Below are positions 4,446 through 62,959 of a stretch of DNA of 64,000 nt, one piece after another. Numbering within the stretch: position 1 is the stretch's first letter; each line of letters opens with the position of its first letter. This stretch comes from Gautieria morchelliformis (Eukaryota > Basidiomycota > Agaricomycetes > Gomphales > Gomphaceae). The stretch covers positions 532,001 to 596,000 of the forward strand of contig WHVA01000003.1 in NCBI GenBank assembly GCA_015179125.1. Reading direction: 5' to 3'. A program made the translations under genes and the position numbers. The notes beneath the pieces are model-generated. The model saw nothing but the letters and a program-made list of their open reading frames with translations, searched no databases and was not told where the DNA came from.

Positions 4446-5983
4446 TCGTCCGACCGAACCCTCCTGCGCCGGGGGGAAGCGCAGCTCGGACACATCCGCT
4501 ACGGTCAGTCTTAGGCACGTTTGTATGCACGCGTGCGACTCATTTCTCGTTGGTCAATGTGTGTGTGCATGCGCGCATGAGTAGTTCATACTGTCGACTG
4601 GGTTTGACGGGCGCGTGAGATTATGTGCGTGTCTGCCACGCGTTCATACAAGGTACTCATGTTGACGCTGACGGGTCCACTGGCAGGGAGCTACACGACA
4701 CTACAATGACGGCGCTGGAAAACATAGCCACTTGAGCAATAACAGTAGATGTCTTTCCGTGCCCTCCGCCCTCGATTTTGGCTTTGGCTTGTGGCTTGTG
4801 GCCGACTGACATCAACCGCTCTCTTCATGATGATGATTTAATCTAGTTCATTATTCGTCTACTGGGCGATGCATATGTCTAGACGTAGTCCATACACAGC
4901 ACAGCGCGAAGCCTTCACTCCTCGTAGTCGCTTTGGAAGACCAGACTAGTGGCTACTCCCAATTGAACCCTTTGGATCCAACACATCGGCCGCCTGGCGC
5001 GTCAAAAGTTCGACAGTGCATATCGTGACGTGAGCCGGTAACTCGCCTTCGGCCTCCTGTTGCCCTGTGTACTGTACGTTGGGTATATTACTAAGCGCTC
5101 GTTACATTTTATGGGACGCCCGCAGGTCATATGCATGTAGACGGGCGGAATTTAGCGTCATGAGTGTGCAAGCTTGAAGGTTACATTGACGGACACGGAA
5201 CGTAATAACGAAGAATGATGACGATACAGTAGAGCACAGCTTGCTGGTGCGACCGTCTAGTCGTTCTAGCAAGCTGTGCTCTATGATGATGGGGCCACCC
5301 GGCGACTAGTGCAGGGTCGGTCAGAACCCGGGAATCAAACCAGGAGCAACGGCATGCTGTGAACCGTACATCATAGGTATGTACCGATGGTGCTTAGGAC
5401 AACTGAGAATGATCACTAGATCAGTCATATTGCCGACGGGGAGGGTAACGGTCGAGATAAATTCCTAACAGAAATTTGACGCTAGACGGACTCCTGTCCA
5501 ATGCCGAGTCTAGCACGAGTAAGTAGGTCAAGACCATCCAGCTGTTCCGGGATATTGAGTCATTGACTCGTATGCAATACTCAACAGCAGTTCGCGAGAG
5601 GCGTGCCATGTCAAACCATTGTCTGTGGCACTCACTGTGGATAGCGGAACCATTGAAAACCCATAGGCCACTGGCGTTCAGTTTTGAGCGCGCTAGCTAA
5701 TGCTAGACGTGAGTGTGACCCGACGGTGCGAACCAATCAGTTCGAGCGAGTTAGCAATCTTTTCGCAGTGTCAGGGAGGGGGAGAGAAGCCGGCGGAAAG
5801 TCGACAGTGTGACCTCCGAGCCTCCGACTCGTTAGCCGCGCGTATCTATTCTGTCACAGTGCCACTGAAAATAGCGTTTACACGCGGAGGTACTGGGTGG
5901 TAGTGCGAGCGCGCGATGGGGTGTAACGGGCGCCCGAAGTGGCGTACGCAATGTCGCGTGGTGGAGGTTCAGGAGGTGAGGTT
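4446..5983. other. Gene-poor stretch
   Basis: No coding region is recognised. It contains an inverted repeat at 5230-5283 with 16-bp perfect arms TAGAGCACAGCTTGCT and a 22-nt loop. The last bases before the right direct repeat (5971-5980, AGGAGGTGAG) are purine-only, as a polypurine tract before a 3' LTR would be. Confidence 0.6.
5230..5283. repeat. Inverted repeat, 16-bp arms
   Basis: Perfect arms at 5230-5245 and 5268-5283 flank a 22-nt loop. There is no poly-U tract or neighbouring gene to make this a terminator. Confidence 0.9.
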
Positions 5984-7167
5984 TGATGAACCTAATAGTG
6001 CATATCTAAGCTTAGGGGCCTTACGCCACTTACAAAGACATTGGAAATTGCTTTAGCCCCGATGACGATAGCAGAGGATTGCAGTGTGAGTACTTACGGG
6101 CGGGAAGACGTGATCGGGAGGTGCTTGAGCGAGTGAGAATGGGGCAAGAATATGGTGAGAGTGAAATACGCAGAGAAAGCGAGACTGGGCAGGAGTACGG
6201 TTGCACGACGAAATGGGTGGCTGCATGGCTAGGTGAGGGTGCGTGCTTTAGATTCGAATACTAACTCCGAGTCCTTCGATCGCTGCTGCCACACACTTTC
6301 ATGTTAGCGATTTCATGGATTTGTACACAAACCAAAAAATTTGTATGATTAGTTGCCGTCCTGTTGCTGGTGCTAGGTGATGGCGAGGCCAACAGCCAAG
6401 TTCGTCAACGCTTCGAACGCTCCGACCGGCGACGCCTTGAGCAATTCCGCGTGGGAGAGACCGTGGGAGAGACCCCAAAGTACGATACAGCCCGGGCTGA
6501 AGCAACGGCTTATACAGGCCCTTCTCCAAGGTATTGATGGTGATCCCGCGCCATGAAGAGACCCAGACGAACCCATCGACGGGAACGCACATGCCAAGAG
6601 GTTGCGCCCAAAATATGCAGCTCACCGGAGCGTATATTTTTAGGCCCTGGCGATCGGGTAAATACCGTGTTTCCTGATGGACAGTGATTATAGGCTGAGT
6701 AATGGGTTCACCAAAGCTGACTGGCACGCGGCAAGATGTATAGCGGTGCAAGTAAATCTTGCCGCAAGTTGGGGGAGAAGAGGAGTAGGGAAAATATGAC
6801 ATTGAAAATAAATATCGGCTCAAAGCTGACTAAGCCGCAGGAACCTGAGATCCACCTGTGGGTGATGTGTGGTGTGTGCTCGACACCTCTGGGATCTCGG
6901 GGAGGTCCGTGGCTGGTTAGCTTAGTCAGAGCCGTTCTACCCTCGAGCCTGAGGATGCGGAGTTAAGCTCCAACACCCAAATACGCTAAAGAAATAGGGA
7001 GTAGGTGGGTGAGAAAGAAAATTCTATTTGCTACTACACGCAGGTGGTAGTAGCGGAGGAAGAGAATCTCGCAAACAAAGTCTGACAGCTTGACAGCTTA
7101 GCTAATGAACCTTACTCAGCCCGACTGTGGAGTTGTGACTCGCGAGCTCGTCACTCTTCAGCACCCA
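5984..7167. repeat. Right copy of the 1.17 kb direct repeat
   Basis: Same orientation as 9-1174. It differs by several small insertions (for example an extra segment near 6440-6480). A purine tract (5971-5980) lies immediately upstream, which would suit the 3' LTR of a LARD-like element whose 5' LTR is the left copy. The five bases after the right end (TGTCT) do not match those before the left end (GGGTT), so no target duplication supports the boundaries drawn. Confidence 0.6.
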
Positions 7168-10651: not shown

Positions 10652-13600
10652 TCAGGCATCACCAGCTCCTGCGTCTGCACTGACAGAGTCTGCTCCATGT
10701 TTAAGCAGCAGCTGAACAATGGCATCATTATGGTTTGATGATGCAGCCCGCAATGCGCTGCCATGCTCCCCCCCTTGGGCATTAACGTCTGCACCCTTTT
10801 CCAGCAGCAGACGAACAACAACCATGCCAATACCCAGAAATGATGCCGCTGCGGCTTGCAGAGCACTGCCATATTTTCCGCCTTGCGCATTGACATCAGC
10901 TGCGTTCTCCAACAGCAGCCGAACAACCACAAGATTACCACGATACGAGGCCGCTTGCAGTGCATTACCATACTTCCCGCCTTGGGCATTGACATCTGCT
11001 CCTTTGTGCAGCAGTAGTTGAACAACCTCCTCACTACCATTATAGGATGCTGCAGCAGCTTGCAATGCATTACCATACCTCCCCCCCTGTGCATTGACAT
11101 CTCCTCCCCTCTCCAGCACAAGACAAACAAGAGCATCATTGCTGCCAAATGATGCCGCTTGCAGCGCACTGCCATACCGTCCTCCTTCTGCATCAATGTC
11201 TGCTCCATTCTTAAGCAAAAGCTGAACAACTGCATCTGAACCACTTGACAATGCCGCAAGCAGTGCACTACCATACTCTCCTCCTTGGGCATTGATGTCC
11301 GATCCCTTCTCCAGGAGCAGCTGAACAATCATAGTATGACCTTGTTCAGCTGCTGCCTGCAGCGCACTGCCAAATCGTCCTCCCTTTGCATTGACGTTTG
11401 CACCCTTTTCTAGCAGTAGCTGAACGACTGCTTCCCTACCATGAGGTGACCCTGCCGCTGCCTGCAGCGCATTGCCATATTTCCCTCCTTGCGCATTGAC
11501 ATCTGCCCCCTTATCCAGAACCAGACAAACAAGAGCATCTTTGCCACCAAATGATGCAGCTTGCAGTGCACTGCCATATGGTTCTCCATCTGCATTGATG
11601 TCTGCTCCATTCTCAAGTAGCAGCTGAACAACCGTGTCTGAACCACTTGACAATGCTGCAAACAGTGCACTACCATACTCTCCTCCTTGGGCATTGATGT
11701 CTGATCCCTTCTCCAGGAGCAGCCGAACAATTGTAGTATGACCTTGTTTGGCTGCTGCCTGCAGTGCACTGCCAAACCATCCTCCCTTTGCATTGATGTC
11801 CGCCCCCTTTTCTAGCAGTAGCTGAACGACCGCTTCCCCACCATGAGGCGACCCTGCCACCGCCTGCAGTGCATTGCCATATTTCCCTCCTTGCACATTG
11901 ACATCTGCCCCCTTATCCAGAACCAGACGAACAAGAGCATCTTTGCCACCAAATGATGCAGCTTGCAGTGCACTACCATATGGTTCTCCATCTACATTGA
12001 TGTCTGCTCCATTCTCAAGTAGCAGCCAAACAACTGCATCTGAACCCCTTGACAATGCTGCAAACAGTGCACTACCAAACTCTCCTCCTTGGGCATTGAT
12101 GTCCGCACCCTTCTCTAGGAGCAGCTGAACAATCATAGTATGACCTTGTTCGGCTGCTGCCTGCAGCGCACTTCCAAATGGTTGTCCCTTCGCATTCACG
12201 TCTGCGCCCTTTTCTAGCAGTAGCTGAATAACCGCTTCACTACCATGATGCGACCCTGCTGCCGCCTGCAGTGCATTGCCCCAGGGCCACCCCTGTGCAT
12301 TGACATCCCCCCCCATCTCCAGCACCAGACGAACAAGAGTATCATTGCCGCCAAATGATGCCGCTTGCAGCGCACTGCCATACCATTCTCCTTCTGCATT
12401 GATGTTCGCTCCATTCTCAAGCAGCAGCCGAACAACTGCATCTGAACCACTTGACAACGCTGCAAGCAGTGCACTACCATACTCTCCTCCTTGGGCGTTG
12501 ATGTCCGATCCCTTCTCTAGGAGCAGCTGAACAATTGTAGTATGACCTTGTTCAGCTGCTGCCTGCAGTGCATTTCCATAGATCCCTCCTTGCAAATTGA
12601 CATCTGCTCCTCCTTCCAGCAGGAGCCTAACGACCATGTCACTGCCATGATACGAGGCCGCTTGCAGCGCATTTCCATACTGGCCTTGCCGTGCATTGAC
12701 ATCTGACCCCTTTGTCAAAAGACTGCTGGATACTCTTCTCAACCCAGCCATCGACATGTAATAAATAGGAGAACATTTCATGCTATATGGATCACCCTCC
12801 CCATCTGGATTCCAAAGCCTCAGCCAATTAGAATAGACAGCATGCTCAGGTTGAAGAAGTTCCATAATCAGTCGGTGCAATGTCGGCTCCTCATCATTAT
12901 CTGGCTGAGCGTGGAACATCCAGTACCGCGCTGCATATGATGAGAGTGGATAGGATGTGCGTGCAGTGTCATCTATGCAACCATGCTTGTCAAATTGCAA
13001 CAGGTAGGCTAGGCATGCCTTAGCGATGAACGTATCAGCTAGTGTCTTGTTGAAATGATAATATGACATTTTGATGTTGCCTTTGCAGAGGTCCTCCGAG
13101 ACAAGATATTCTCGGACAGAGAAATGTGCCAGGCTGACCTGTTCCCGCTCAGGGAACTGTGCCCGGTAGACAATGCTGTCAGTGTGGATGTCTTCTCCGT
13201 TGTGCAATCGGACGTCGGGGACCGTAATGGTGACAAGACTCGCACATATCGTCAGAACGTCATGTGGATTCCAAAGCCGCCGATTTGGGTCAAATAGGGG
13301 ACCATTTTCGGTATCAGGATCTGTAGCAAGCAAATCCACAGCCTCGCTGAGTGACAATGTGCGGGCTGAGAAAGCAAGCCATTGCAGCAACTTCAGGGCA
13401 TCCTGTCTATAGTCTTCGTTGATTTCCAGAAGAATCCTATCATAGGTCTCGTAAAGGGTCTTCGGTAGACAGGTGAGTGCCTTCTCGAGTGCGGCAGGGG
13501 ATCGACACCTTCGCAATGCATCCAGCTGACAAACAACCCATCGAAACCTGGCCGTCCTGTCAGTCATGATCTTCCAAGAGGAGGTATGATAACTCACATC

Positions 13601-15405
13601 CCATCTGCACCTTTCATCAACGTCATCTTAATGGTTTCCTTCATTTCTGCCGAGCATTTACTGAACTTGATATCATTATCCAGCATCCGGGATACATGGA
13701 CTTGGATATCGCCGCCAACAAGACGCTCGTCCATGAACATCTGATGTGAAACCAAGCCGCTTAGTGTTTCTTCAATATCTTGCTCCTTTCTACTCGTTGC
13801 CAGAAGGTGCAAATGGTCCAGGTTCCAACCGTGGATCTCTTCAAGCAGCTTCAAAAACTCAGGCCGACTTGGGCATTCGTCGAGGGCATCGAAGACGATG
13901 TATACGTTCTTGAAACTGCCGATGACAGACATGAGAGTTGACTTCAGCTCGTCCAGAGCTGGTGATCGGCGGCTATCCGCGTAGGCAGAGAATAGTTTCT
14001 CCAGGCTATCGGGGATGCTCGTGCATTTCGAAGACAGTTGCTCGATCAGTGCACGCAGGACGCTATGTGGTTGTATGTCTTTGCTGTGATAATCGAAATA
14101 AAAGTATGCGACTACCAGCGAGTGATTGATGAGCTCCTGGATGATGGTGGAGCTAGATGGATGCATCCGTTAGCATGATACCTAGTCAGAGGAGACATTT
14201 AATGTAATGGTTTACCATAAGACAGTTTTCCCGGCGCCGGCTGTGTGTTTATTAGCGGCGACTATCAAACAAGTATAGAACGTACGCTTGCCGTGAAGCC
14301 AAAGAAACGACTGCGCCATGCCTTTCCATTCCAGAAAACTGACTCCTTGCAGAAACCAGGAGCCCGTGTCTCCTTCCCGCTCCGTGCGGGCATTCCAGTG
14401 CCTCGGCCGATAATCAGGTGCCGACAACCAATGGTAGATTTCCTGTCGACGTTTGTCTATAGGGAATTCCGTGAGAATCAGTCAGTTTCAAGTCATCGGG
14501 CAGTAGCAATGTCGCACAGACCTTGCTTGTCACTCTCATGTTCGCCATGTACCGTCAACGCCAAATTTCTGCAAACACAATAAGGAGTGCTCCGTGTTTG
14601 AGGTTAAGCCGGGAACGTACGTTTGGTCAACGAGCAGAGCAGAAGTAAGCAGCTGATGGAACCTTTGCAGGTTGTCCAGAGTCTTTCTGACCTCACCTTG
14701 CCTGAATGTCCATGCCAGCGCTTCCTTGCGAGATGTACCTCCATCCTTGCTGTTTATCTTGTTCAAAAGACTATTCAGCTCGGCGTGACAACCCGCAAGG
14801 GCACATGGCATCCCTTCTATTCCCCCATCTTTGTCTTCCAACACATTATCCACTGTAAGTCCACCTTCGTTGATAGGTTATCCGGGATCCCCTGCGACAG
14901 CTGGGGAAATGGGCATACCGTATGTGTGTCCACTTTTAGTTTCAGCCCTGTACAAACGACCTTTGGTCTTCAACTTCTTCTTCCGGAGACTGTTCACCAT
15001 GGCATGGCGACCTGTACGGCTACTTGGCGTGGAGTCTGTGCGTCCATCTTCGAGTCCTAACAGATTCTCAAGGCTTGTATCAAAAGTTTGACGGTCATAG
15101 GGCGTATTGAACGCCGCAATCAAAGTCGGCAATCGGGCAGTCGTTTTGGTTTCCTCATCCTTTATAAGCTCATGGATAGCACTGAGTACCGGAACCAGTC
15201 TGGCGACCTCATCACTGAGCTGATTCATGTCTTTGGACGCATTCTTATATGTAGTGCCATACGCAGAGCATGTGCTGATAACCGCTTTACCGAGCTGAAC
15301 AACGGCAATGACGCTTGCTGAGTGGCCTGATGAGCATGGGAGTAGAAAGAAAACGAGTATCAGCGACTTGCCTGCTACTCCCAGGCCTGCCAGAGCTTCG
15401 GCCAT
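10652..15405 (-). CDS. NACHT-ankyrin STAND protein (NLR-like)
   Basis: A signal-transducing ATPase of the fungal NLR-like type; such proteins are linked to non-self recognition and regulated cell death. I infer eight exons on the minus strand: 15405-15372, 15317-14919, 14852-14621, 14568-14522, 14456-14286, 14240-14216, 14152-13598 and 13556-10652. They total 4368 nt, 1455 residues, all in frame. Residues 1 to about 240 form a helical domain (GLGVAASVIAVVQLGKAVIS) like those heading many fungal NACHT proteins (Helo-like, Pfam PF17111 type). WLSAPD precedes the NACHT domain. The P-loop GKPGAGKT is at 293-300 and Walker B VFDALDEC at 389-396, followed by ATSRKE and the winged-helix segment RFRWVVCQLDALRRC. 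Twenty ankyrin repeats fill about 781-1445. The first intron is GC-AG (CAG/GCAAGT), and a 25-nt microexon carries most of the P-loop. All motifs are intact, so it looks functional. The ligand is unknown. Confidence 0.93.
10973..12580 (-). repeat. Four 402-bp superunits of ankyrin repeats
   Basis: Within the last exon, ankyrin repeats 2-17 cycle through four types: AAEQG, ALSSG, ASFGG and the two-residue-longer AGSHHG. Lengths are 33, 33, 33 and 35 residues. The tyrosine opening repeat 2 (12580) and that opening repeat 18 (10972) are 1608 nt apart, exactly 4 x 402. Units are near-identical at DNA level. This points to amplification of a four-repeat block by unequal exchange. Residues 814-1349 of the protein. 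Confidence 0.92.
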
Positions 15406-15903: not shown

Positions 15904-18118
15904 CTTTCAAACTGAATGAGTTTGTGGCTCACGTCTCTGCTCGGCGTGGAACACAGCACTCATTTTCACGCACAGTCTGTTCTCCCCGAGGCGGCATTTG
16001 AGGTCTGAGGCCTCTCCTCTCCGGCTCTCATGTGTATCGTCGCGGAAAGGTGTCCGTCACACACGAACAGAGTCTCACAGCAAGAGGCAGTGAGTGGAAA
16101 ACATTTCGATTCGCGTGGCATCTCTCTCTGCCTTATTCCTCGCTCGCCTCCGCACGATGGTAGACAAGGCTATCAGTGCGTATCAGCAGGTATGCCACAC
16201 TGCTTTCCAACGCCTAAGGCTTTCATCTCGTTCACTCACCTGGGTGCGACGCTATGAGCAAAGTTGTTGAATTATAATTGCGAAATTCTAGGGGGCGATC
16301 TTGATGAAAGAAACACTCCCTGCTGTACTCTTATGTTACATTGCTGTGGTGGCTTGCACGAGTGCAAACCCCGTGCCCTACCTCGCATGTTCCCTTCTAA
16401 ACCTGACGCTCTAGGGTTTCCACCGAACGTACGCTAACAGGGTTGTTTTTTCGCTCAAGATACTCAGCATATGGATGCGGGTCTAACGCCCCTAATGAAT
16501 ACATTTCCACTGGTCTCGGTGGCCGCCAGCCGCAGTGCCGCCAAGCCCTTAAGCAGGATTCGGTCCTTATGCTGCTGTTTTATCACTGAGTACGGATCAG
16601 GGGCTGTCCGGTGCGACCGCACATACCTGTTCGGTGTAACATTTGTCCATTAGTACATTGAGCCGCAGCTCCATCGGAGTAGCGCCCCTGAATCTGGATC
16701 CTAATATCCCCTGATCTGGTCAAACCTCCTAGCTATCGCCACCACATCGCCACCACATCGCCACCACATCGCAACCCTTGCCCAATGTCATCATCGTAAG
16801 TTGTAACAATGTCCAGTCTAAAAAACGTAAACACAGAATACGACACCTCCTTTAGATCAACGAAATACATACATCCAGGAGAATTGATCGACCAAGTCAT
16901 CGACCACTTGCACGATGACCCACCCTCTCTACGAGCATGTTGCATCACTTGTCGCGCATGGGTCCCCAGTGCACGGTTTCATATATTCCATGACATTGTG
17001 CTCTCCGCTGAGCATGCCGACGCACTCGCCGTGCTTCTGGAAACTAGCCCGCATATTTCCCCCTTGGTCAGGTCGCTAACCATTAACGGACACCTGGATA
17101 AGATGCACAAAGGGTTGGACTACTATCTGGAGGCGGTAATTCCCGCAATTGCTCCCAAATTGACAAGACTGAAGACCCTTCGAGTCGAACGGGTGACCTT
17201 AGCTAAGCAGCACCCAAAGGTCCTGTCTGCATTAATTCACAACTTCTCTACTCTCCAAGAATTGCACATTTCAGTAGTCCTCTTCAACAGATTCAGAGAC
17301 CTTGCAGCACTCATAGTTGCGCATCCATTCCTAGAATGCCTGGATCTCGGAGCCATATTGTGGAACTTCAAGTCGGTGACAGCGGAAAGTCATGTGTTTC
17401 AGGAGTATCCTGCCTTGCACTCACGATTACGGTGCATAAAATGGCACTCCATATCTCTCAGTGTGATTGATTGGCTGTCAGCTTACTATCATGTCCTGCC
17501 TGTTCATACGGTCACTCAAATATCCTACATTTCCATCCATGAGCTTCCCCAGATGGCGAGGCTTCTCCAACTCATCGGATCTTCCCTTGAACATGTCGCC
17601 TTCTCCATTAGTCAAAGGTCTCCCGGTATGAAATTTCCCTTTGTGGAAGCTTTTATCTCCCACTGACACCATTTTAGAGAAACCAAAGATGGATGTCTTA
17701 TCATCAAACACAGGATTACGCACTCTAACTTTCAACAGCATTTTGCTGAGTCTAGAATATCCACGGACTTATGCATGGCTTCCTGTATTGCTCTCCCAGG
17801 TCACATCCCATTACATTGAGGAAATATCATTTGGTTTGAACTGGTACCAAGTCAAGCTAATAGAGACAGTGGATCTAAAGCTGGTACAGGATATCATCAC
17901 CAAGCCTGTTTTCAGTGGACTGAAGAGAGTCATTTTTCAATGGTATGGTGGTGTGGATCCTGTGGAGGGCAGCCAAGCAATTAGGGCGCAAATGGACCAA
18001 CTCAATAGAATGGGACTACTTGTCTTCCGCCATGAATAGTGCATTTAGCATTCAGATAGGGCTATTACTTGTAGCCAGAATAGATATACACCAAGACAGT
18101 TGAAACTTGTGTGTCATT
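15904..18118 (+). repeat. Segmental duplication with F-box gene, copy 1
   Basis: This 2.2 kb segment recurs in the same orientation at 55080-57313. Both copies begin TTTCAAACTGA followed by TGAGTTTGTGGCTC, and homology fades after the gene. The 5' non-coding part has a few indels: copy 1 has 13 extra bases near 16385, and copy 2 has an insert near 55700. There are no terminal inverted repeats or transposase, so the mode of duplication is unknown. Confidence 0.9.
16809..18039 (+). CDS. F-box protein, copy 1
   Basis: Probable substrate adaptor of an SCF ubiquitin ligase. Exons 16809-17625 and 17678-18039 with a 52-nt GT-AG intron give 392 residues. The F-box lies at about residues 25-62 (ELIDQVIDHLHDD, then CCITCRAWVPSARFHIFHDI), the form common in Agaricomycete F-box families. 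The rest is a Leu-rich, LRR-like region with no named motif; it would bind the substrate, which is unknown. The start follows a run of 11-nt ATCGCCACCAC repeats (16735-16772). Compared with copy 2 (56000-57239) the first about 325 coding bases are identical. I count about 20 nonsynonymous and 6 synonymous differences further on. Copy 1 stops at TAG where copy 2 has TGG. Confidence 0.85.
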
Positions 18119-26211: not shown

Positions 26212-26216
26212 ACTGT

Positions 26217-26899
26217 TGTTACGTATCGAGATTTCCACTAAGTCGGAACTGGAAAGGACAGCGGCTTCAACTTATAGGTTGCGCCCCCGATGAACTATCG
26301 TCCTAGGTATTTCGGAAATGAGCCGGAAGTCGGAAAGTACTGGACCAGAGGTTTGGTCGGAACTTGAGTCGGAACTGAGGCGGAAAGCGGAAGACCGAGA
26401 GACTGAGATCTTGCTAGACTCGCTGTGCTAAGAACAGGAGATGGAGCGAAGGAAATCAAGTATCGAAGGTGATTATCTGATTGCAGAATAACAGACATAC
26501 ATGAGGGGGTTTTTATACAAAGCGCAGAGCAACAAGTAATGGTGTTGTACTAAGCAAATTCCGGAGGAAGCGGAAGTCGAGTACAATGTGTGGGAACTAA
26601 CTTATTGGGAACAATGGGACTACAAGGGGGGTTCAGGGTAAGGTAGAACAATGGCAAAGAACAAGGGGTCGGAAGAACATATCTGACAACGAACTACAAG
26701 GGTGACCGGATATATGGTTTTGATGGATGGCGAGGTGGGTCCGGTGGGTCCGAGTAATAGAGTCGAAAGAACAAGGGAAATGTACAAGGGGCGGAATGTC
26801 GGAAATGTCGGAGGGGCGGAACGTTGTGGCGGAACTATTGGAGAGGCGGAATGTATGGCGGAACTGAGGGTCGGAAGTCGGAAATGAACGGTTGTAACA
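26217..26899 (-). repeat. 3' LTR of element 1
   Basis: 683 bp, TGTTAC...GTAACA at the ends, identical by eye to 33502-34184. It contains 18 copies of CGGAA on the plus strand against one TTCCG, several as close direct repeats such as CGGAAGTCGGAA. Confidence 0.97.
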
Positions 26900-26944
26900 G
26901 TATCTCCCTTCTAAGGTCGAGCCCCGCGAGACCACAAGTCGGAA

Positions 26945-26986
26945 TCACGTGACCTGTGAACAAACGCGTCGGAGTTTTGAAATATA
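26945..26986 (+). promoter_or_regulatory. Possible promoter of the antisense ORF
   Basis: Between the LTR edge and the antisense start codon (27023) lie the palindrome TCACGTGA (26945-26952, a bHLH-type site) and an AT-rich GAAATATA (about 26979-26986), some 40 nt before the ATG. This could start transcription opposite to gag-pol. It is only sequence-based. Confidence 0.35.
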
Positions 26987-27022
26987 GGCGGGAAACAAGA
27001 CGCGTCTTCTGTTTACTCCATC

Positions 27023-28228
27023 ATGAGCTCTTCAGTCGATTTCTCTAAAATGTCCAGTGCCGAGATGAAGCAGCACTTTGCTGATATTCTTGCGCAGAAG
27101 GAACTGGCCGAGAAGCGCGAGGCCGAGGAAGCCGCGCGGAAAGAGAGGGAGCGGCTGGAGGAGGAGCGCAAGGAACTGGAGCGTCGGGAGCAGGAACGGA
27201 AGGAGAAGGAGGAGCGTGACCGTAAGCGTCGCGAGGAGGAGTCGCGCGCCCGTGAAGAACAACGGAAACGGGATGCGGCCGAAAAGGCTGCGGAAGAAAA
27301 GGCCGTGGCGGAAAAGGCAGGGAGGTTCCGGGTGAGTCGGAAATGTCGTGGGGAGGTTCCGGAGCTCACAGAGAACTGCCAGAGAGTTGCCGATTCCGAG
27401 GGGGAGTCGGAAGCGGAAAGTACGCCGACTCCAGAGGGCAAGGGGAAGCAAAAAGAAAGTGCTCCCATGCCGAACGTAGTTGAGGAGCGGAAACGGAGGG
27501 CGGACGAGTTCCAGCAGGCTCGGAAAGAGAAACTGGCTCGGATACTGGAGTTGCGAGAGCTGGGGCCGGAAAATCCTGCGACCCGGAAAAGGAAGACCAG
27601 GGACGGTGAGGAGGAGAAGGCTCCTTGCGATACGTGTGAGGTCAAGGGCCTGGAGTGCGTGTGGTCGGAAAATCCGCGGGAGACGGCCTGCGAACGGTGC
27701 CGGGACAAGAAGTGCCGTTGCGTGGTGGATGGGTGTGCCGCGAGGGTGGAGCGGAAACGGCGCAGGGTTGAGACCGAGGGGCCTGAAACCCCCAAGTCAA
27801 AACCGGGACCAAGCGGGAAGAAGGCGGAGGGGTTTCCGGTGACCGGAACATCGGAGACAGCGGTGCTGAACCGCTTCAGCATGGCATCTCCGCTGCTAGA
27901 CATCGCGGAGTCGCTGAGGGGGATCCGGAAAACCCAACGCGGGATCCGGAAACTGCTGACGGATATGGCGGTGGTTCAGGAACAGCAGTTGCTGTCGTTC
28001 CAGAACCAGATGACCGTCATGTCGGCGGTCCTGGAGCAGTTCAAGCGCGAGTACCGGTGGCGGAACGAGATGGTCCGGGAAAGGATGGAACCGCGGGTGC
28101 AGGAGGAGAACGGGGCGGAAACGAGGGAACGGGTAGACACGGAGTTGGTGGTCGTCGAGGTAGAAGGGTCGGAAAAGGATCCGGAAGCGGAAAGGGAGGT
28201 CGAGGCGGAGACCATGAGGGAGGAGTAG
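27023..28228 (+). CDS. Antisense accessory ORF: coiled coil plus Zn2Cys6-like cluster
   Basis: Intact 401-codon ORF on the strand opposite gag-pol, lying between the pol stop and the 3' LTR. Residues about 10-95 are a highly charged coiled coil rich in Glu, Lys and Arg. Cysteines 202, 205, 212, 223, 226 and 233 are spaced C-x2-C-x6-C-x10-C-x2-C-x6-C, within the usual range of fungal Zn2Cys6 DNA-binding clusters, and are followed by basic residues (VERKRRRVE). Residues about 285-350 form a second predicted helical segment (LLDIAESLRGIRKTQRGIRK). No retroviral protein is recognised. A relic with the same six-cysteine spacing is at 62960-64000, and a related C-terminal piece is at 45524-45895 in the same antisense position of element 2. 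Function is not known; a DNA-binding regulator of the element is my inference. Confidence 0.78.
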   Translation: MSSSVDFSKMSSAEMKQHFADILAQKELAEKREAEEAARKERERLEEERKELERREQERKEKEERDRKRREEESRAREEQRKRDAAEKAAEEKAVAEKAGRFRVSRKCRGEVPELTENCQRVADSEGESEAESTPTPEGKGKQKESAPMPNVVEERKRRADEFQQARKEKLARILELRELGPENPATRKRKTRDGEEEKAPCDTCEVKGLECVWSENPRETACERCRDKKCRCVVDGCAARVERKRRRVETEGPETPKSKPGPSGKKAEGFPVTGTSETAVLNRFSMASPLLDIAESLRGIRKTQRGIRKLLTDMAVVQEQQLLSFQNQMTVMSAVLEQFKREYRWRNEMVRERMEPRVQEENGAETRERVDTELVVVEVEGSEKDPEAEREVEAETMREE

Positions 28229-28338
28229 ATGTCGAAAAACCTGTAGATAATTTCTTGAAGTGTCGGAAAATAGGATATCGGAAGATTAATCGTTTTTTTT
28301 TTTTTGATAAATGTCCTGAGAACTGTGAAAGCAATGGT

Positions 28339-28374
28339 GTCGGAAATGAGGTCGGAAATGAGGTCGGAAATGAC
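28339..28374. repeat. Three 12-bp units GTCGGAAATGAG
   Basis: Three tandem copies, the last diverging at its final bases, sit at the junction of the pol stop and the spacer to the antisense ORF. Each contains CGGAA, the motif enriched across the element. Confidence 0.9.
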
Positions 28375-31051
28375 TAGGGCGCGGGAATGGGGCCAGGCTT
28401 GTCAGGATATGACTTGTGGAAATCAGAGACGAGGTCAGAGGCGTGGTCAAGTTCCGTGGCGGAAATCCACGAAGTCTCTTCGTCAGTGTTTTCATAGCCT
28501 GCCCACTTGACTAGGTACTGGAGTTGGCAGCGGTATCTTCTGTCGAGCTTGGAGTTGAGAATTTCCGAAATCTCATATTCCGGTTCTCCGTCGATGACGA
28601 CTGGCGGAGGCGGAGGTTGTTCTCGATTCGGAATTGTATTCGGAACTGCGGGTTCAAGCATGGAGACATGGAATACCGGATGTACTGCGCGCATATTGTC
28701 AGGAAGTCTGAGGGTGAAAGAACGACTGCCGGCCTTAGCGATGATCTCGTAAGGACCGAGGTATTTCTCAGAGAGCTTCTTCGAGGGGCGAGTGGTGCGG
28801 AAGTTTTCCGCTTTGACAAAGGCTTTGTCGCCTATCTCGAATGCCGGTTGCGGAAGGCGTTTCCGATCGGCGGAAGTTTGGTATCTCTTCTGGGCAGCGG
28901 TAATGTTCTCTCGGAGGTGCTGGTGAAGGTCGTCAAGTTCCACAACGAAATCTCGGGCTCTTGCAGAGGCGAGGTCGCGTTCAGGGTGGATGGCGAGATT
29001 CGGGTGGTAGCCCTTGTTGGCATAAAAGGGTGAAATTCCGGTGGTAGCGGAAGGCGCGTTGTTGTAGGCAAATTCCGCGAGCGGAAGAAGGTCGGACCAA
29101 TTGCTATGTTGGTAGTTGCAATAGACGCGGAGATACTGCTCAAGGGTCTGATTAGTACGTTCCGTCTGTCCGTCTCCTTCGGGGTGATAACCGGAGGTGA
29201 AGTGGAGTTTCATGTCGAGAGCCTTGCCGAGCGTGCGGAAAAAGGATGACACAAATTCGGATCCACGGTCGGAAGTGACATGGGAAGGTATTCCGTGCTT
29301 GGAAAAGACGTGGAGCACAAAGAGCTGTGCGAGCTGGGCGGAAGTTATGGTGTCGTAGGTCGGAATAAAGATGGACTGCTTTGTGAGGCGGTCAACGATC
29401 ACTAGAATGGTATCATAGCCAGATGACTTAGGAAGTTTCTCAATGAAATCCATGGATATCGAATTCCACGGTTGTTCCGGGATCGGAAGTTGCTTCAGGA
29501 GGCCGTAGGGTTTGTGACGTTGAGGCTTGGCTCGCATACAGGTGGTGCATGACTTGCAGTAGTCTTGGACCATCGTGCGGAGGAGAGGCCAAGTATAGGT
29601 ACGTCGGATTATGTCGAGGGTCTTGTTCTGGCCTTGGTGTCCTGAGAGCGGATGATCGTGGCTTTGCTGGAGCACGCGAAGTCGTAGATCGTTGGTGTCC
29701 GGAACGTAAATCCGGGACTTGTACCGGAGAAATCCGTCGGAATCGAGGGACCATCCAGGACTGGTGCGGTCATCGAGGTGGGCTGCGGAGGTGGGGTCGG
29801 AACGGAGTGCGGATCGGATGTCGGAATGGAGAGACTCGGTGTCCATAATAATTGAGGCGCGGAGTAGTGGAAACTGCAATGCTGTGGCACGCAGGGACGA
29901 TGCCAGTTGCTCAGTGGAGAATACTGGGCGGAAATTGTGCGGATTAACGCTGGCATAGTCGCTACTTCCCTCTTTTGGGTAGACGTCCCAACGTCTAGTG
30001 AGCGCGTCGGGTTTTGCTCCGAGCTTTCCGGGGCGGAAACGGATCACCATGTTGAACTGTGAGAGGTATTCAGACCAGCGGACTTGACGGCGAGTCAAAA
30101 TCTTAGTGGTTGCAAAATACTCAAGGTTCTTATGATCCGTTACAACGTCGACCGGATAAGTTGGACCTTCGAGGTAATGTCTCCAGATTTTGAAGGCTTC
30201 GAAAATCGCAAGTAGTTCCTTATCGTGGACGTCGTAGTTGAGTTCCGCGGCGGAAAACGTGCGGGAATGAAAGGCGATCGGATGAATTTCTCCGTCGTCG
30301 GGTGAAATGATGGAAAGAATGGCGGCTAGCGCGTAGTCAGAAGCGTCGGTTTCGAGTACAAGTTGGGCATCAGGAATCCAGAAACCGAGTATGGGAGCCG
30401 TGGTGAAGGCCGATTTGAGAGCTTCAAATGCGGAACGGCATTCCGGTGTGAAATTCCATGGGGCACCCTTCCTGGTGAGACGCGTGAGCGGAACAGTAAT
30501 GTCGGAAAAATTATAAATGAAACGCCGGTAAAAGTTGGCGAAGCCAAGGAAAGACTGCACATCCTTAACACGTCGGGGTTCCGGCCATTCTTGAATTGCC
30601 TTGACCTTGTCCTCTGCCATGGTAAGACCTGTTGGAGAGAGGATGTAGCCGAGGTATTCGACCGTGTCGCGATGCCATTCGCATTTCTCTGCTTTTGCGT
30701 AGAGATGGTGTTTGCGTAGGCGGCGGAGTACTTCGCGGACATGTTCCCGATGTTTTTCCGGTGTGTCGGAATAGATGAGGATGTCGTCAATGTAGACTAG
30801 AACGCATACGTCGAGGAGGTCGGAAAATACGTCGTTCATGAATCGCTGAAAAGCGGCGGGAGCGTTGGTTAGACCAAAAGGCATGACAGTCCACTCAAAG
30901 GCACCATAGCGGGTGCGGAAGGTGGTCTTCCACTCGTCACCTTCCCGGATGCGGACAAGGTGATAAGCGTGCCGGAGGTCAATTTTGGTGTAGATCTTCG
31001 CCCTGCGGGGAGTGTCGAGTAAGTCGGAAATGCGCGGAAGCGGATATTTGT

Positions 31052-31060
31052 CCTTTTAGT
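31052..31060 (-). other. Frameshift point in element 1 RT
   Basis: Element 1 reads ACTAAAAGGAC where element 2 (about 42611) reads ACTACGAAGGAC: one base fewer plus a substitution. This moves RT into another frame just after the [12 protein letters not shown] motif. Confidence 0.8.
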
Positions 31061-32076
31061 GAGGGCATTGAGTCCGCGGAAATCGACGCAGAGGCGGAGA
31101 GATCCATCCTTCTTCTTGACGAAAAGGACCGGAGCGCCGTGCGGAGACAGCGAAGGGCGGATAAAGCCCATGTTGAGATGTTCATCGACGAACTCTCGGA
31201 GAGTCAGGAGTTCACTTTGCGAAAGGGAGTAGATCGGTCCAAGGGGCGGAGATGCTCCTTCTTCCAATTCTATCTTCAAGTCGTAAGGTCGATGTTCAGC
31301 AGGTTTGTCGGCTTTGGCCTTATTGAACACGTCCGGGAAGTCACGATATTCTTCCGGAACTGAGCTCATGTCGACCGGGGCGGAAGTCGAGGCGGAACGA
31401 GCCTTGACTGAAGCCGAATCGGAGAGGTGAAGCTGGAAAACGGTCGTATCATCTTGCCGTTGCAATACGCGGAAAGCGGTGGCGGAAACGAGCGCAATTC
31501 GAGGGGCTTCGAGGGGCGGAGGTGCTAAAGCGGGACCGGAGTGCGGAACTGAATCCACGAGCGGAGTTGCAGAAGAGGCCTGAGCCATCTTTGCGGACGA
31601 CGTCGGAATAGACGAAAGTTGATCCGGGGTACGGAACTGTATTTGACCCAATGCCCAGTTAATCGACGGATTATATCGGGTGAGCCAATTGTGTCCTAGT
31701 ACAACGGAGCAGCTAGCATCTAGCGGAGTAACGTAAAACGTAACTTCATGGTTGTCCCCAGTAGCGAAACGGATAGACAGATCCACAACTTGGGAAATTC
31801 CCGTGTTGGAAGACCCGTCGAAAAGGCGGAGCGGAATAGTCGGAATGTTGCGGGTCGGAAGTTTATGTTTCAAAACAAAGTCGGAATCGAGGAAACAATG
31901 AGTCGAACCGGAGTCGACCAGTGCTGTGAACGGGGGTGCGGAAATGGTGTCGGAAGTGAGCGGAACAGAGAGAGAGTCGGAGGACGAAAGAGCGGATGCG
32001 TTGAGTTTAACCTCGTTTGTCGCACGAATGGGGTCAACACAGCCCTCAGCTCGTGCGGAGGCCGGAGGACTGCTGA

Positions 32077-33468
32077 CTATTTTTTTGAATCCGCAGCGGG
32101 AACCGCTTCGGATTTCTCTTCCGTCTTTGCTGCGCGGCCCTTGGCCTTAGCAGCGGAGGCGGAAGCGCGAGTGCAGTCGCGAGCGACGTGACCTCCTTTG
32201 CCGCAGAAGAGGCAAAGGTTGTTGTCCATGCGACGCTGGCGTTCTACAGGGGTTAGTTTTCCGTCTTTCCCAAGTTTGTCGGAAAGATCCGGGGTGCTCT
32301 TCCGGGCGTTGGTGTTAGAACCAGAGGCCTGGTTGTTCCGAGGGGTGTTGTTGTTGTTCCGGTTGCCGGAGTTGGTGTTTCCGGAATTGGTCTTCTTCTT
32401 GTCTTTATCAGACTTCTTGTCGGAAGACTTGTCATTCTTGCTCTGGGTGGATGTTTCACGAGCGATCTCGGAATGTCTTTCCCAGTAGCGTGAATCGATG
32501 GATTGAGCGAGGTTGCGGAGGTCGGTAAGGGTGGCGGGTTTTCCGACGCGGGCAATTTCATCCTTGATGCGGGATGGCAAGCCCATGTAAAACTGGCGTC
32601 GGAGTGCGGCTTCTCCCCATTGGACTCGAGGAGCGAGCTGCTGAAACGTGACGATATATTTAGCTATCTTATGAGTGTCTTTCATGCGAAGCTTATCGAG
32701 TTCGTTTTCCGCATCGGCTTCCATATCAAATGGTCCGAAGTTGCTGCGGAGTTCGGAAATGAAATTGGGGTAATCGTCGGCCCAGTCGACGAGAGCGAAC
32801 GGATCCATGAGGGCGGGTTCGAAATAGTCGAGCGCCGTGCCTCGGAGATAGGAAAGGGCATAATTGACCTTTCGTTCGTCGTCGGGAAAGGCGTCGGGAC
32901 GATCTCGGAAATTGAGTTGAAGCTGAACCAGAAATGGCTGGAGCTTCTTGGGGTCGGAACCGTCGAACTGATCTGGTTCGCGGACCTTTGTCTTGGGTCG
33001 TGGTGGTGCTTGGGCCGGGCGCTGGAGTTGTCCGGCTAGCATGGCGATGGCTTGTGCAAGATCCGGAACTGGCGCGGGCGTAACTGGGTTGGCGGGAATC
33101 TGAGGTGGAATTGGAGGTGGAGGACCACCGGGAGGACCGCCTGGCGGACCGCCGGGTGGGCCGCCATGAGGGCCGCCTGGAGGTGGTCCTGGTGGAGGTG
33201 GTGGTGGTGGAGCTGGGCGTCGGTATGACGCTGCTGTTTGTTCGCCGCTGCTACTCGTCGAATTCCCGTCGTAGTCGGGATTGTCGTCGGGATTAGCGTC
33301 GGGAACTTCTTCGAAACGTTGCGGAAAAGCATCGGAAAGCTCATCGTCGGCACGAGAGCTGCTGGAGGGTTCCGCGTGCCTTGGTGCTGCGGATCTAAGA
33401 TTGCCAAAATAAGAGAGAGCTTCGACAGCTCCTGCTCGAGCTGAAGTAGCTGTGGTACGAGGAGGCAT
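32077..33468 (-). CDS. Element 1 Gag
   Basis: Structural protein forming the virus-like particle around element RNA. It has 463 residues. The N-terminal part is acidic and Pro/Gly-rich ([17 protein letters not shown]). The retrotransposon Gag fold follows ([53 protein letters not shown]). A Lys/Asn-rich linker leads to a CCHC zinc knuckle, C-x2-C-x4-H-x4-C ([14 protein letters not shown], residues 419-432), that binds RNA. The start is the first ATG after the primer site, 21 bases downstream. The stop TAG follows directly on seven A, a -1 slippery site leading to pol. Element 2 carries the same gene with several stops. Confidence 0.93.
32080..32086 (-). promoter_or_regulatory. A_AAA_AAA slippery heptamer
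   Basis: In the gag frame the codons are TCA AAA AAA TAG, so the seven A fit the X_XXY_YYZ pattern for -1 ribosomal slippage. The -1 frame is open into pol. The same heptamer with the same phase is at 41594-41600 in element 2. Confidence 0.8.
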
Positions 33469-33488
33469 AGTGATAGTTATCGGGTGGG

Positions 33489-33499
33489 AATCAGATAAT
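33489..33499 (-). promoter_or_regulatory. Primer-binding site, self-priming type
   Basis: Two bases inside the 5' LTR lies ATTATCTGATT (sense strand). It is exactly complementary to AATCAGATAAT at 33767-33757 in the same LTR, about 35 nt after TATAAAAA. It does not begin TGG as tRNA-primed sites do. Tf1 of fission yeast primes itself with the first 11 nt of its RNA in this way. Confidence 0.75.
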
Positions 33500-33501
33500 A
33501 C

Positions 33502-34184
33502 TGTTACGTATCGAGATTTCCACTAAGTCGGAACTGGAAAGGACAGCGGCTTCAACTTATAGGTTGCGCCCCCGATGAACTATCGTCCTAGGTATTTCGG
33601 AAATGAGCCGGAAGTCGGAAAGTACTGGACCAGAGGTTTGGTCGGAACTTGAGTCGGAACTGAGGCGGAAAGCGGAAGACCGAGAGACTGAGATCTTGCT
33701 AGACTCGCTGTGCTAAGAACAGGAGATGGAGCGAAGGAAATCAAGTATCGAAGGTGATTATCTGATTGCAGAATAACAGACATACATGAGGGGGTTTTTA
33801 TACAAAGCGCAGAGCAACAAGTAATGGTGTTGTACTAAGCAAATTCCGGAGGAAGCGGAAGTCGAGTACAATGTGTGGGAACTAACTTATTGGGAACAAT
33901 GGGACTACAAGGGGGGTTCAGGGTAAGGTAGAACAATGGCAAAGAACAAGGGGTCGGAAGAACATATCTGACAACGAACTACAAGGGTGACCGGATATAT
34001 GGTTTTGATGGATGGCGAGGTGGGTCCGGTGGGTCCGAGTAATAGAGTCGAAAGAACAAGGGAAATGTACAAGGGGCGGAATGTCGGAAATGTCGGAGGG
34101 GCGGAACGTTGTGGCGGAACTATTGGAGAGGCGGAATGTATGGCGGAACTGAGGGTCGGAAGTCGGAAATGAACGGTTGTAACA
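33502..34184 (-). repeat. 5' LTR of element 1
   Basis: 683 bp. In the sense direction U3 runs from 34184 to about 33768, with TATAAAAA at 33802-33795. The predicted RNA start is near AATCAGATAAT (33767-33757). Identical by eye to 26217-26899. Confidence 0.96.
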
Positions 34185-34189
34185 ACTGT

Positions 34190-45523: not shown

Positions 45524-45895
45524 TCACACATCCTGCACTTCGCCCTCGGATACCTCCACCTCCAAGTTCCCCCTGTCATTGTTCCCCCTCAACTCCCCCA
45601 CGACCCGTTCCAACAAGTCCTCGTACGCACCCAGGTGATCCGCGAGGGCCAGGTAGAACTGGTGTTGCATTAGCAACCTCTCGTCCCCCTGCCGAAGCAA
45701 TTCCTGGAGTGACCTAGCAATATCCGCAAGCGGATCCGCCGTCTGCTCCTCCCGTGTCGTCCCACTTCCGCTCGCCTCCGGCCCGTCTTGGACTCTCGCC
45801 TTGGCAGCCCTGGACAAGGGCTTCCGCGCAACCTGAGCAGGCTTTTCCGAGCCTACTTCCGATCCTCCGGTCTTCCTATGAATTCCAGACGTCAT
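45524..45895 (-). pseudogene. Antisense ORF fragment of element 2
   Basis: Lies after pol on the opposite strand, as in element 1. The 123-residue frame includes DPLADIARSLQELLRQGDER and LGAYEDLLERVVGELRG, which align with the C-terminal helical part of the element 1 antisense protein (PLLDIAESLRGIRK, MSAVLEQFKRE). The Zn-cluster and N-terminal coiled coil are absent because the element is truncated at about 45900. Confidence 0.6.
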
Positions 45896-45900
45896 GTGAT

Positions 45901-46561
45901 GCGTCTACATGCACCCATGCTTTCTCATTATTTCCCAGGCTGAGTTATGGTGAAAGTGTAAAAATATGAGAACTATACGATAATGCTCAGTAGATGCTTC
46001 GATGCAAAGTACTATGATATTTTTACCTATACGATAATGCTACAAATCGTATAGATGAGCTAAAGTGAATGCGAGACTAATAATGCGTTTCTTACCTCAG
46101 TAGATGCTTCGATGCAAAGTACTGAGGCAGAGTACAGAAGATACTAGCTACTTATAGTTCTTGGAGAACAATGGGAATTATACTACAATAGGGACATCAG
46201 GACAAAGGAAAATATAGAAACAATGAAGCTGCGCATGCTTTGTCACAATGGGGTGACACGGGGTGACGCGGTTTGCTATTGTGCTTACGCGTTCACTCCT
46301 ACAGAAAGCTGGATGGAAGTCCGAAAAAACACAGTCAAGTACAACGGCATTGATCACTCACAAGGTCCACGACGTCCACGGCTCACTGGCAGGGATATAG
46401 CTGAAGCAGAGTATTCTACACATACACGTATTACCAACGCTAGTCCGAATCTCAGGACCACGATGAATAGGAATGATGTTAGCTACGGTTGCGGAAGAGA
46501 TGCATAATTGAGTGTGGAACTGATGAAGATGAAGCAGGGGTATAAGAAAACCCTAGAACTT
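45901..46561. other. Non-coding stretch with a 26-bp direct repeat
   Basis: CAGTAGATGCTTCGATGCAA plus AGTACT occurs at 45988-46013 and 46098-46123, and TATACGATAATGCT also occurs twice. No gene is recognised. Confidence 0.6.
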
Positions 46562-49578: not shown

Positions 49579-50510
49579 GAGTTGAGCTAGCTATAGCTTC
49601 GAGTTGGTTTAGAGGCGAGTGGGTTTAAAAGACTCCACAGCACAGGTTTTCCAGTTATGGAAGCAAAGTGGCTTCATTTGAAAGCAGATGTTCTGCCCAG
49701 TATGTGCATATATACATATATTGACCTAATAGCTGGCCTTAATTTGGTATTGGGTATGTATATCCTCCTCCTTTCCCATGCTTTCCCCACAGTCCTGCAT
49801 TCCCTGGCCATCCTCTTACACACTCCTTCCATGTGTGCTGCTAACTCGACCTCCTTAGCACCACCCGGGCGCCTTCAGGCAGTTCCACGGCATCTCCCGA
49901 ACCGAGGGCCGGTTCCTCGGATTCTTCTCTGACTCTTTCTGACCAGTTCGACCACCCGAACACAACTAATTGTGGGCAATTGTGACTGGATGGTACCAGT
50001 TCCAACATGATCGAGTTAGTAGCTTAAACTCTTTGGGCGGAATACATAACCACTCAGCCGTTCCACTTAGTTATCTGGCCCCGCTTCTGTTTCAGAATGC
50101 CCTGGGTCTCTCACGACAACTTTCCCTCATTCTGGGTGGGGCGAGTGCCGTTACTTTCCTTGTCGGCTCAATCATTCCCATTTGGGTCTGTCTACTGTCT
50201 CTCTTTGAACCATCTGCTCATATTCGCCCGTAGAACACTGACCGCTATGGGCGCAGACCAATTCTCATGCTTTCCTGCGGTGGTACATGTTTTTGCTTTG
50301 CGATGACGGCCATCCTGATCTCTACAAATACAAAGCCCGCGGCGTTCGGTGCTGCGGCGATCATTTTTTGTTCCAAATTTGCATAGGCATGGGATTCTTG
50401 CCAAATGTAAGCGCGTACTGTTGCGGGCGTCCCACCTATTAATTTGCTATCGAGACATGGCTTTATCCTGCAGAGATTTTTAACGAGACACAGCCGTTTA
50501 GCTTTCGCTG
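49579..50510. other. Intergenic, no recognised gene
   Basis: Divergent upstream regions of the NLR-type gene (minus) and the CipC-like gene (plus). Several short open frames are present but none is recognisable. Confidence 0.4.
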
Positions 50511-51137
50511 ATGCCTTATCACAGATTTCCACCACGCGGATCCGAGCGCGAGGCGATGCAGTGGCAAGCTTCGCGGGATGGGAATAATGAGCTGTGGTTG
50601 ACGACATGTTTAACAGCTATTGCTGGCGCAGCCGGATTTGCCACAATGAAGGCATACGAGTCTCATCTTCGTGCGACAGGCCAGCAGCCATCCCATGTGT
50701 TGATGAAGGTCTGTCATTCGATTTATACTCATGAAACATGTTTTAAATTTACCAATACACAGGACATTCTCGCAGGTATTGCTGCAGCTGAAGTCGACAA
50801 GCTTGTCGAGACTAACGCCGGTGGGACCGGCTGGGAATACGCACAGTCTCAGGGTGGCTACGCTTCAGAGCATAACTATGGTGGAGGTGCGCCCTGGGGT
50901 GCTCCCTGTCATGGCGGGTATGCCGCTTACGGAGGTGGGTATGATGGAGGATACCAGCAAGCGCCACGAGGGTACTATCCGCCTCCCCAGGCATACCCTC
51001 CTCAACAGCCATACTACCAGCAGCAAGGGTGCGGCCAGCCCGAATATGAAGGTTACCGGTACGAGGGCGAGCATCACCGTCGCCACTCAGGTGAACATCA
51101 TCACGAGGAGCACCACCATCATCATCGCCACCACTAA
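50511..51137 (+). CDS. CipC-like protein with Gly/Tyr/Pro and His-rich tail
   Basis: Exons 50511-50708 and 50763-51137 with a 54-nt GT-AG intron that preserves frame either way; the spliced product is 190 residues. The N-terminal half (LTTCLTAIAGAAGFATMKAYESH, then HVLMKDILAGIAAAEVDKLVET) matches the CipC-like (DUF3759) family, small fungal proteins first noted in an antibiotic response; their biochemical role is unknown. The C-terminal half is low complexity: Gly/Tyr-rich, then Pro/Gln-rich, ending in repeated His with Glu (EEHHHHHRHH), which could bind metal. No signal peptide. Splicing removes an insert with two Cys (VCHSIYTHETCF) that breaks the family helix, which supports the intron. 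Confidence 0.8.
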   Translation: MPYHRFPPRGSEREAMQWQASRDGNNELWLTTCLTAIAGAAGFATMKAYESHLRATGQQPSHVLMKVCHSIYTHETCFKFTNTQDILAGIAAAEVDKLVETNAGGTGWEYAQSQGGYASEHNYGGGAPWGAPCHGGYAAYGGGYDGGYQQAPRGYYPPPQAYPPQQPYYQQQGCGQPEYEGYRYEGEHHRRHSGEHHHEEHHHHHRHH

Positions 51138-62954: not shown

Positions 62955-62959
62955 TGCCG

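Follow-up and report, generated by a model that had tools for sequence, protein, structure and literature searches.

What is the function of a gene that runs opposite to gag and pol inside a long terminal repeat (LTR) retrotransposon? In a 64-kb stretch of DNA (the window) within the 122-Mb, 1113-contig assembly of Gautieria morchelliformis, an ectomycorrhizal basidiomycete of the Gomphales (PMC7550596), a young Ty3/gypsy chromovirus, element 1, carries a 401-codon open reading frame (ORF) on the antisense strand between pol and the 3' LTR. Comparison with its relatives makes us highly confident that this ORF is a selected accessory protein gene; it is predicted to be spliced once, and its product holds six cysteines spaced as in a Zn2Cys6 cluster. 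We tentatively favor the reading that the product is a nuclear DNA-binding protein acting on its own element, much as VANC acts on VANDAL transposons.

An antisense gene in a young chromovirus

Element 1 occupies positions 26217-34184 (minus strand) of the window. Its two 683-nucleotide (nt) LTRs are identical (0 mismatches) and are flanked by a 5-bp target-site duplication, ACTGT, and its profile matches over the Pfam cut-offs are RVT_1, RT_RNaseH, Integrase_H2C2, rve, Chromo, RVP_2 and Retrotrans_gag. The domain order, with a C-terminal chromodomain after the integrase, together with the paired LTRs and the short duplication, is that of a Ty3/gypsy chromovirus. Pol consists of two overlapping frames in element 1 and of a single open 1257-codon frame in other copies. 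Among 11 copies in which both LTRs exceeded 600 nt inside the fetched stretch, the LTR pair shows 0 differences in five, 1 in two, and 3, 6, 14 and 22 in the remaining four. The parts of element 1 are as follows:

26212-26216, no strand: target-site duplication ACTGT, read from the sequence; other copy at 34185-34189
26217-26899, minus: 3' LTR, 683 nt, TGTTAC...GTAACA; CGGAA occurs 18 times on the plus strand and once on the minus strand
26900-26912, minus: purine-rich stretch adjoining the 3' LTR, putative polypurine tract
26900-27022, plus: 123-nt leader from LTR to ATG, candidate promoter or 5' untranslated region of the antisense gene
27023-27331, plus: exon 1 of the antisense gene, 103 codons, coiled coil
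27332-27382, plus: predicted intron, 51 nt, GTGAGT...CTCAC...CAG, phase 0, in frame in element 1
27383-28228, plus: exon 2, 281 codons and stop, with the Zn2Cys6-like cluster and the C-terminal coiled coil
27626-27721, plus: six-cysteine cluster C-x2-C-x6-C-x10-C-x2-C-x6-C, residues 202-233
28374-31055, minus: pol, with reverse transcriptase, RNase H, integrase and chromodomain (profile matches)
30869-32146, minus: protease and start of reverse transcriptase, in a second, overlapping frame
32077-33522, minus: gag with CCHC knuckle
33502-34184, minus: 5' LTR, same sequence as the 3' LTR

The initial annotation had placed the 401-codon ORF (27023-28228, plus strand) opposite gag-pol, between the end of pol at 28374 and the 3' LTR, and the coordinates and profile matches bear this out. 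Two other long frames, of 320 and 254 codons, lie on the other strand of the same stretch. A small tandem of GTCGGAAATGAG-like units at 28338-28375 lies between the stop of the antisense gene and that of pol and contributes to the CGGAA excess described below.

The association of gene and element holds throughout the genome. A whole-genome search with the antisense gene gave at least 105 matches (103 scored of 1078 candidates), and pol lies on the opposite strand in 43 of the 46 gene loci fetched. An integrase-chromodomain stretch faces the gene directly past its end in 20/20 near copies, 12/14 divergent copies and 11/12 loci of a second gene type, B, the last including element 2 of the window; of the three loci lacking a facing pol, L046 has none within the fetched stretch, L047 has a piece of gag on the gene's own strand, and L034 stops at a contig end. 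Starting instead from pol, the 90 best of 7358 candidate integrase-chromodomain copies were scored (95-100% identical), and 60 of these 90 face a scored gene copy within 700 bp. Reading the exon 1 matches by eye adds six more (C388, C504, C270, C953, C215 and C349), for 66/90, and the remaining 24 have no facing gene among the matches listed. On pol's own strand, a scored gene copy within 2000 bp was found for 0 of the 90 scored pol copies, counting the 103 scored gene rows and the further match rows on contigs that carry a scored pol copy. Homologues linked to LTR elements are what had been anticipated for a gene belonging to the element; its position, orientation, presence in most scored pol copies and conservation as a protein are those of an accessory ORF. 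The leader is likewise retained, with CACGTG in all 28 aligned loci (20 near type A, eight type B) and 82-96% identity in divergent type A and type B loci.

Selection on the antisense frame

The ratio of nonsynonymous to synonymous divergence (dN/dS) between the gene of element 1 and 14 divergent copies is 0.16-0.24, at a synonymous divergence (dS) of 0.45-1.04; a value near 1 would have spoken against a selected gene, and the one obtained is about 0.2. The pooled ratio of nonsynonymous to synonymous polymorphism (pN/pS) is 0.19 in near and 0.32 in divergent copies, and by region the ratio is raised in the intron-holding linker (0.60) and the tail (0.51) and lies at 0.18-0.32 elsewhere. A neutral simulation with the same substitution classes gave a mean dN/dS of 0.73 and a minimum of 0.42. 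Other frames have medians of 1.2-2.1 except for the −2 frame at 0.34, a low value that we take to be due to its third positions coinciding with those of the gene; substitutions are in excess at codon position 3. The dN/dS alignment contained the intron codons, and the divergent copies were taken from rows without stops, a choice that biases the zero-stop test, on which we do not rely, and that affects the codon-position and dN/dS results less. Decayed copies are frequent among the genome-search rows, with 1-4 stops. Taken together, these comparisons indicate that the antisense reading frame is under purifying selection.

A conserved antisense intron

The initial annotation read the ORF as a single 401-residue product. 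The length of the ORF stands, but not its reading as one uninterrupted coding unit: we predict two exons around an in-frame 51-nt intron (ORF residues 104-120) and a product of 384 rather than 401 amino acids. The ORF contains a single match to the intron pattern, which 8 of 1000 shuffled versions also contain. All 20 near copies have 51 nt at the intron place, and 13 of the 14 divergent copies, which were picked for being open, have 54 nt; L054 has no match to the pattern. Among 12 copies whose match starts just past the intron place, the length is 53 nt in eight, 52 in two and 55 in one; L058 has acceptor and donor changed, and L063 has the donor GTTAGT. After removal of 53 nt, exon 1 is open up to the splice site and exon 2 up to its usual end in seven of these 12 (L055, L057 and L060-L064), and in the other five an exon is broken or incomplete in the stretch read. 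In young copies, whose pol shares 98-99% identity with that of element 1, the intron measures 55 nt (L069-L073, with TAA inside it in four of the five) or 56 nt (L074); exon 2 is open for 285-316 codons in all six, and exon 1 for at least 75 codons in every one except L071. In type B the pattern is found in 12 of 15 loci, with a length of 47 nt in 10 of them and 45 nt in the other two. Six of the 12 (L033, L036, L040, L067, L068 and L076) keep both exons open and in phase as far as the usual end; in L039 the frame shifts close to the end, and in L030, L031, L034, L035 and L038 an exon is broken, absent or out of phase.

Intron lengths that shift the frame, flanked by two open exons, are difficult to account for unless an antisense RNA is spliced, and comparison of the copies thus implies that this conserved intron (45-56 nt across relatives, often out of frame) belongs to a spliced antisense mRNA. 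Because the intron is antisense to the genomic RNA, splicing of that RNA cannot remove it, an arrangement that illustrates how a spliced gene can persist in an LTR element.

Two gene types and their exchange between elements

The genome holds more than 100 matches to two coexisting types of antisense gene. Type A, that of element 1, and type B are 33-35% identical in exon 2, with the six cysteines among the shared features. The window contains one further representative of each:

45524-45904, minus: C-terminal portion of a type B gene that faces pol in element 2 and lacks its front part
62716-64000, minus: decayed type A relic, interrupted by a copia element and with one stop within the cysteine cluster

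The first of these confirms an earlier identification of a C-terminal homologue antisense to the pol of element 2. For the second, the claim that the cysteine spacing is kept holds, with one stop inside; the element adjoining its end is not a gypsy but a Ty1/copia element (60194-63000, plus strand; copia-type gag, Pol_BBD and gag_pre-integrase), whose end runs into the relic on the opposite strand as if the copia element had inserted or recombined into it.

The antisense gene appears to have been exchanged between elements as a cassette. In 12 of the 14 divergent copies, the pol stretch compared (61-97 codons) differs from that of element 1 by a synonymous divergence of 0.14-0.23, versus 0.45-1.04 for the antisense gene, and type B genes in C1108, C309 and C582 lie beside a pol that is 98-99% identical to that of element 1. 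A gene that is more divergent than pol in the same copies, and the presence of both types beside near-identical pol, argue for cassette movement. In addition, incompatible site pairs increase with distance (0 of 1000 permutations were as low as observed for close sites), and the three young copies L069, L071 and L073 have a longer tail with an ending like that of element 1.

Protein searches gave only P0002 and P0003 among the matches listed, and one further search gave none. P0003 is a JGI metagenome protein from a 916-bp contig. P0002, from G. morchelliformis, matches the antisense protein at its N-terminus only; it is 100% identical to contig C763 over residues 1-81 and 127-167 and 78-92% identical in other pieces. 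Its model (C763:29442-31593, outside the window) combines the start of antisense exon 1 (about 64 residues) with a PF20414 domain, which we take to be DUF6698, and may reflect either the capture of a promoter with its first exon or an error of gene prediction.

The cysteine cluster and the predicted fold

Zn2Cys6 clusters (PF00172) follow the spacing C-x2-C-x6-C-x5-12-C-x2-C-x6-8-C, have basic residues between the second and third cysteines, in the first half of the cluster, and read CGG triplets. The cluster of the antisense protein was initially described as Zn2Cys6-like, and its spacing supports that description: the exact arrangement recurs in 53 of 58 loci examined, spanning both types, and fits the PF00172 pattern given above, with extra cysteines surrounding the cluster in element 1's own copy. 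Other features depart from the family. The antisense protein, P0001, scores 12.6 bits (best seen, 18.3) against a Pfam cut-off of 21, and the 17 matches listed in a whole-genome PF00172 search include 0 at antisense-gene places. The basic patch lies in the second half of the cluster, not in the first; in type A the halves read CDTCEVKGLEC and CERCRDKKRRC in many rows, and in type B CDACLEKNLPC and CNRCKDAKRAC.

AlphaFold2 places coiled-coil helices at residues 12-104 and 288-366, in agreement with the two flanking helical regions seen earlier, in a full-length model that is mostly long helices. Among 29 weak Foldseek matches, 24 are Zn2Cys6 domains, a weak hint of a likeness of fold to Zn2Cys6. 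One PDB sequence search gave no match, and another gave mostly coiled-coil designs, aligned past the cysteine cluster columns. We consider it likely that the cluster is a DNA-binding zinc cluster.

CGGAA words in the element

CGGAA is the commonest 5-mer of element 1 on the strand of the antisense gene, with 101 occurrences in 7285 nt against 30 on the opposite strand. The LTR, the densest part longer than 200 nt (26 per kb), has 18 where 1.7 are expected (maximum of 5 in 200 shuffles), and the counts exceed all 500 synonymous-codon shuffles in each of pol, protease/reverse transcriptase, gag and the spliced gene, the first two of these pieces overlapping by 187 nt. Elsewhere the word occurs at 0.4-1.1 per kb on either strand in six parts of the window, and at higher density in two parts that hold related elements or relics. 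Type B shares the enrichment: eight of its loci have densities of 3.9-24 per kb ahead of the ATG and of 10-14 per kb within the gene. A spacing of 12 nt between words is in excess (8 versus 1.5), the sole one past the 99% line among the 36 distances listed. Retention of CpG in the LTR and leader is 0.964 at CGGAA and 0.944 at other CpGs, with no clear difference (17 of the 20 near copies compared, three left out).

Zn2Cys6 proteins read CGG, and the element is dense in CGGAA; this pairing leads us to propose that the protein's target is the element encoding it. The tie between the tiling and the antisense protein appears here as a correlation, not a demonstration.

What might the antisense protein do?

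Sequence comparison shows the structure of the gene, its conservation, selection on it, its linkage to the element, cassette exchange and motif tiling. Beyond these, we propose that transcription antisense to gag-pol would begin in the 3' LTR or the adjoining 123-nt leader, and that the transcript would be spliced once and translated into a product about 384 residues long, in which two coiled coils flank a six-cysteine zinc cluster and which is probably a nuclear, zinc-containing, DNA-binding dimer. This dimer would bind the CGG(AA) words spread over the LTRs and the element body, and its binding could keep the element open against silencing or drive LTR transcription, as VANC does for VANDAL. 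That the product acts on its own CGGAA sites is possible, if somewhat doubtful; that it does so in an activating or anti-silencing sense is somewhat unlikely. Unlikely as a whole is the complete picture, a self-made, sequence-specific anti-silencing or activating system in which a cassette-shuffled, spliced antisense zinc-cluster gene reads accumulated CGGAA in an arms race with the host.

The same observations admit other explanations. The CGGAA tiling could be unrelated to the antisense protein, as a mutation trace or the target of a host factor, with the protein doing some other nuclear job. The motif is common to two gene types that share only 33-35% identity in exon 2, and among near copies CGGAA is not clearly better kept than other CpGs, both in keeping with such independence; on the other hand, the six cysteines are common to both types, so that a shared target is possible, and CGG triplets are what Zn2Cys6 proteins read. 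We regard this explanation as somewhat unlikely. Quite unlikely, in our view, is a brake that binds the LTR or element proteins and lowers sense transcription or transposition while related copies coexist, in the manner of HBZ or of copy-number control. Its attraction lies in the position of the gene beside the 3' LTR, the coiled coils, the many young copies in one genome (0-1 differences in 7 of 11 LTR pairs) and the coexistence of diverged types, and antisense proteins of human T-cell leukemia virus (HTLV) are discussed in PMC11963269. However, selection would keep a self-slowing gene less easily, and tiling of the whole body would exceed the needs of a promoter brake.

Alternatively, the protein could bind RNA, with the sense genomic RNA and its approximately 100 UUCCG words as the ligand in packaging, export or protection. 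The strand bias of the motif (101 versus 30) and its extension through coding parts would suit an RNA ligand, but the word is densest in the LTRs, which are sites of DNA regulators, the cysteine spacing is that of DNA-binding clusters, and the weak fold matches are mostly DNA-binding domains; we judge RNA binding improbable. Two further explanations dispense with the protein altogether. A functional antisense RNA (double-stranded RNA or small RNA) with an incidental frame, a role discussed for plant antisense ORFs (PMC7264820), is very improbable given a dN/dS of about 0.2 and open exons flanking out-of-frame introns, and we rejected it on the evidence of selection on the protein. A chance open frame in GC-rich DNA, of which the 320- and 254-codon frames on the other strand might be further instances, is harder still to credit: selection, the intron, conservation down to 33-35% identity and the metagenome relative P0003 all speak against it, and it was rejected on dN/dS.

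Relation to known systems

A Boty-like element with the gene brtn is reportedly the subject of Zhao et al. 2011. In the Boty-like retrotransposons of Botrytis cinerea, brtn is an extra gene lying antisense between pol and the 3' LTR (PMC7264820; named also in PMC8365987 and PMC5987419), and these elements carry a chromodomain (PMC4227169). Compared by description, not by sequence, they share with element 1 the fungal Ty3/gypsy-type chromodomain element and the position of the antisense gene. The extra antisense ORFs of plant gypsy elements invoked by the initial annotation are documented as gene23 of maize Grande, in rice RIRE2 and as the TRP28 ORFs of Retand; that of Grande is reported to have its own promoter and a nuclear product, and DNA binding is predicted for TRP28 (PMC7264820, PMC11963269). 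Retand, however, is of a non-chromovirus lineage, unlike element 1, TRP28 is a domain other than the zinc cluster, and the word zinc has 0 occurrences in the main text of PMC7264820 and PMC11963269. The role of antisense genes in LTR retrotransposons is described as still open (PMC7264820).

At the level of the protein, the likeness to PF00172 members such as Gal4, Ppr1, Put3, Leu3 and Hap1 lies in the cysteine spacing, the coiled coils and a weak resemblance of fold; the antisense cluster differs in falling below the Pfam cut-off, in its mid-protein position and in having its basic patch in the second half. HBZ of the animal retrovirus HTLV-1 is a basic leucine zipper (bZIP) protein from a spliced antisense gene read from the 3' side, and is thus alike in the position and splicing of its gene and different in being a bZIP protein rather than a zinc cluster. 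VANDAL of Arabidopsis is a plant DNA transposon, another class than the LTR elements. The motif bound by VANC21 is short, and its density matters (PMC5735166; VANC of VANDAL also in PMC10398659), and the proposed likeness of working is that of an element-coded protein and a dense short motif in the same element (PMC5735166), here CGGAA, a predicted target only, with 101 copies in 7285 nt where six other parts of the window have 0.4-1.1 per kb. The VANC motifs, in contrast, lie in non-coding tandem repeats, and binding is shown for VANC and proposed for the antisense protein.

In the literature searched, with subscription papers mostly outside reach, we recognised no earlier account of an antisense retrotransposon gene that encodes a zinc cluster. 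Our analysis adds a family from a basidiomycete whose antisense product has a zinc cluster and whose antisense intron is conserved, a measure of selection, the coexistence of two types that can be exchanged, and the motif tiling; none of these did we recognise for antisense retrotransposon genes in that literature. Sequence alone thereby leads to a testable mechanism, in which a protein resembling CGG readers meets about 100 CGG words in its own element. If the protein does counter silencing, element-coded anti-silencing would extend from plant VANDAL transposons to fungal retroelements.

Other features of the window

A 991-codon ankyrin-repeat ORF lies at 10652-13627 (minus strand), with regular DNA spacings of 99, 204 and 402 nt. 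Direct repeats at 1-886 and 5976-6892, about 6 kb apart and with pieces 92-99% identical, look like the LTRs of another element. The stretches 15904-16947 and 55082-56138, in the same orientation and 39 kb apart, have pieces 95-99% identical, and each overlaps a 288-codon ORF. Finally, the ORF at 50502-51137 (plus strand) has a DUF3759 match over the Pfam cut-off.
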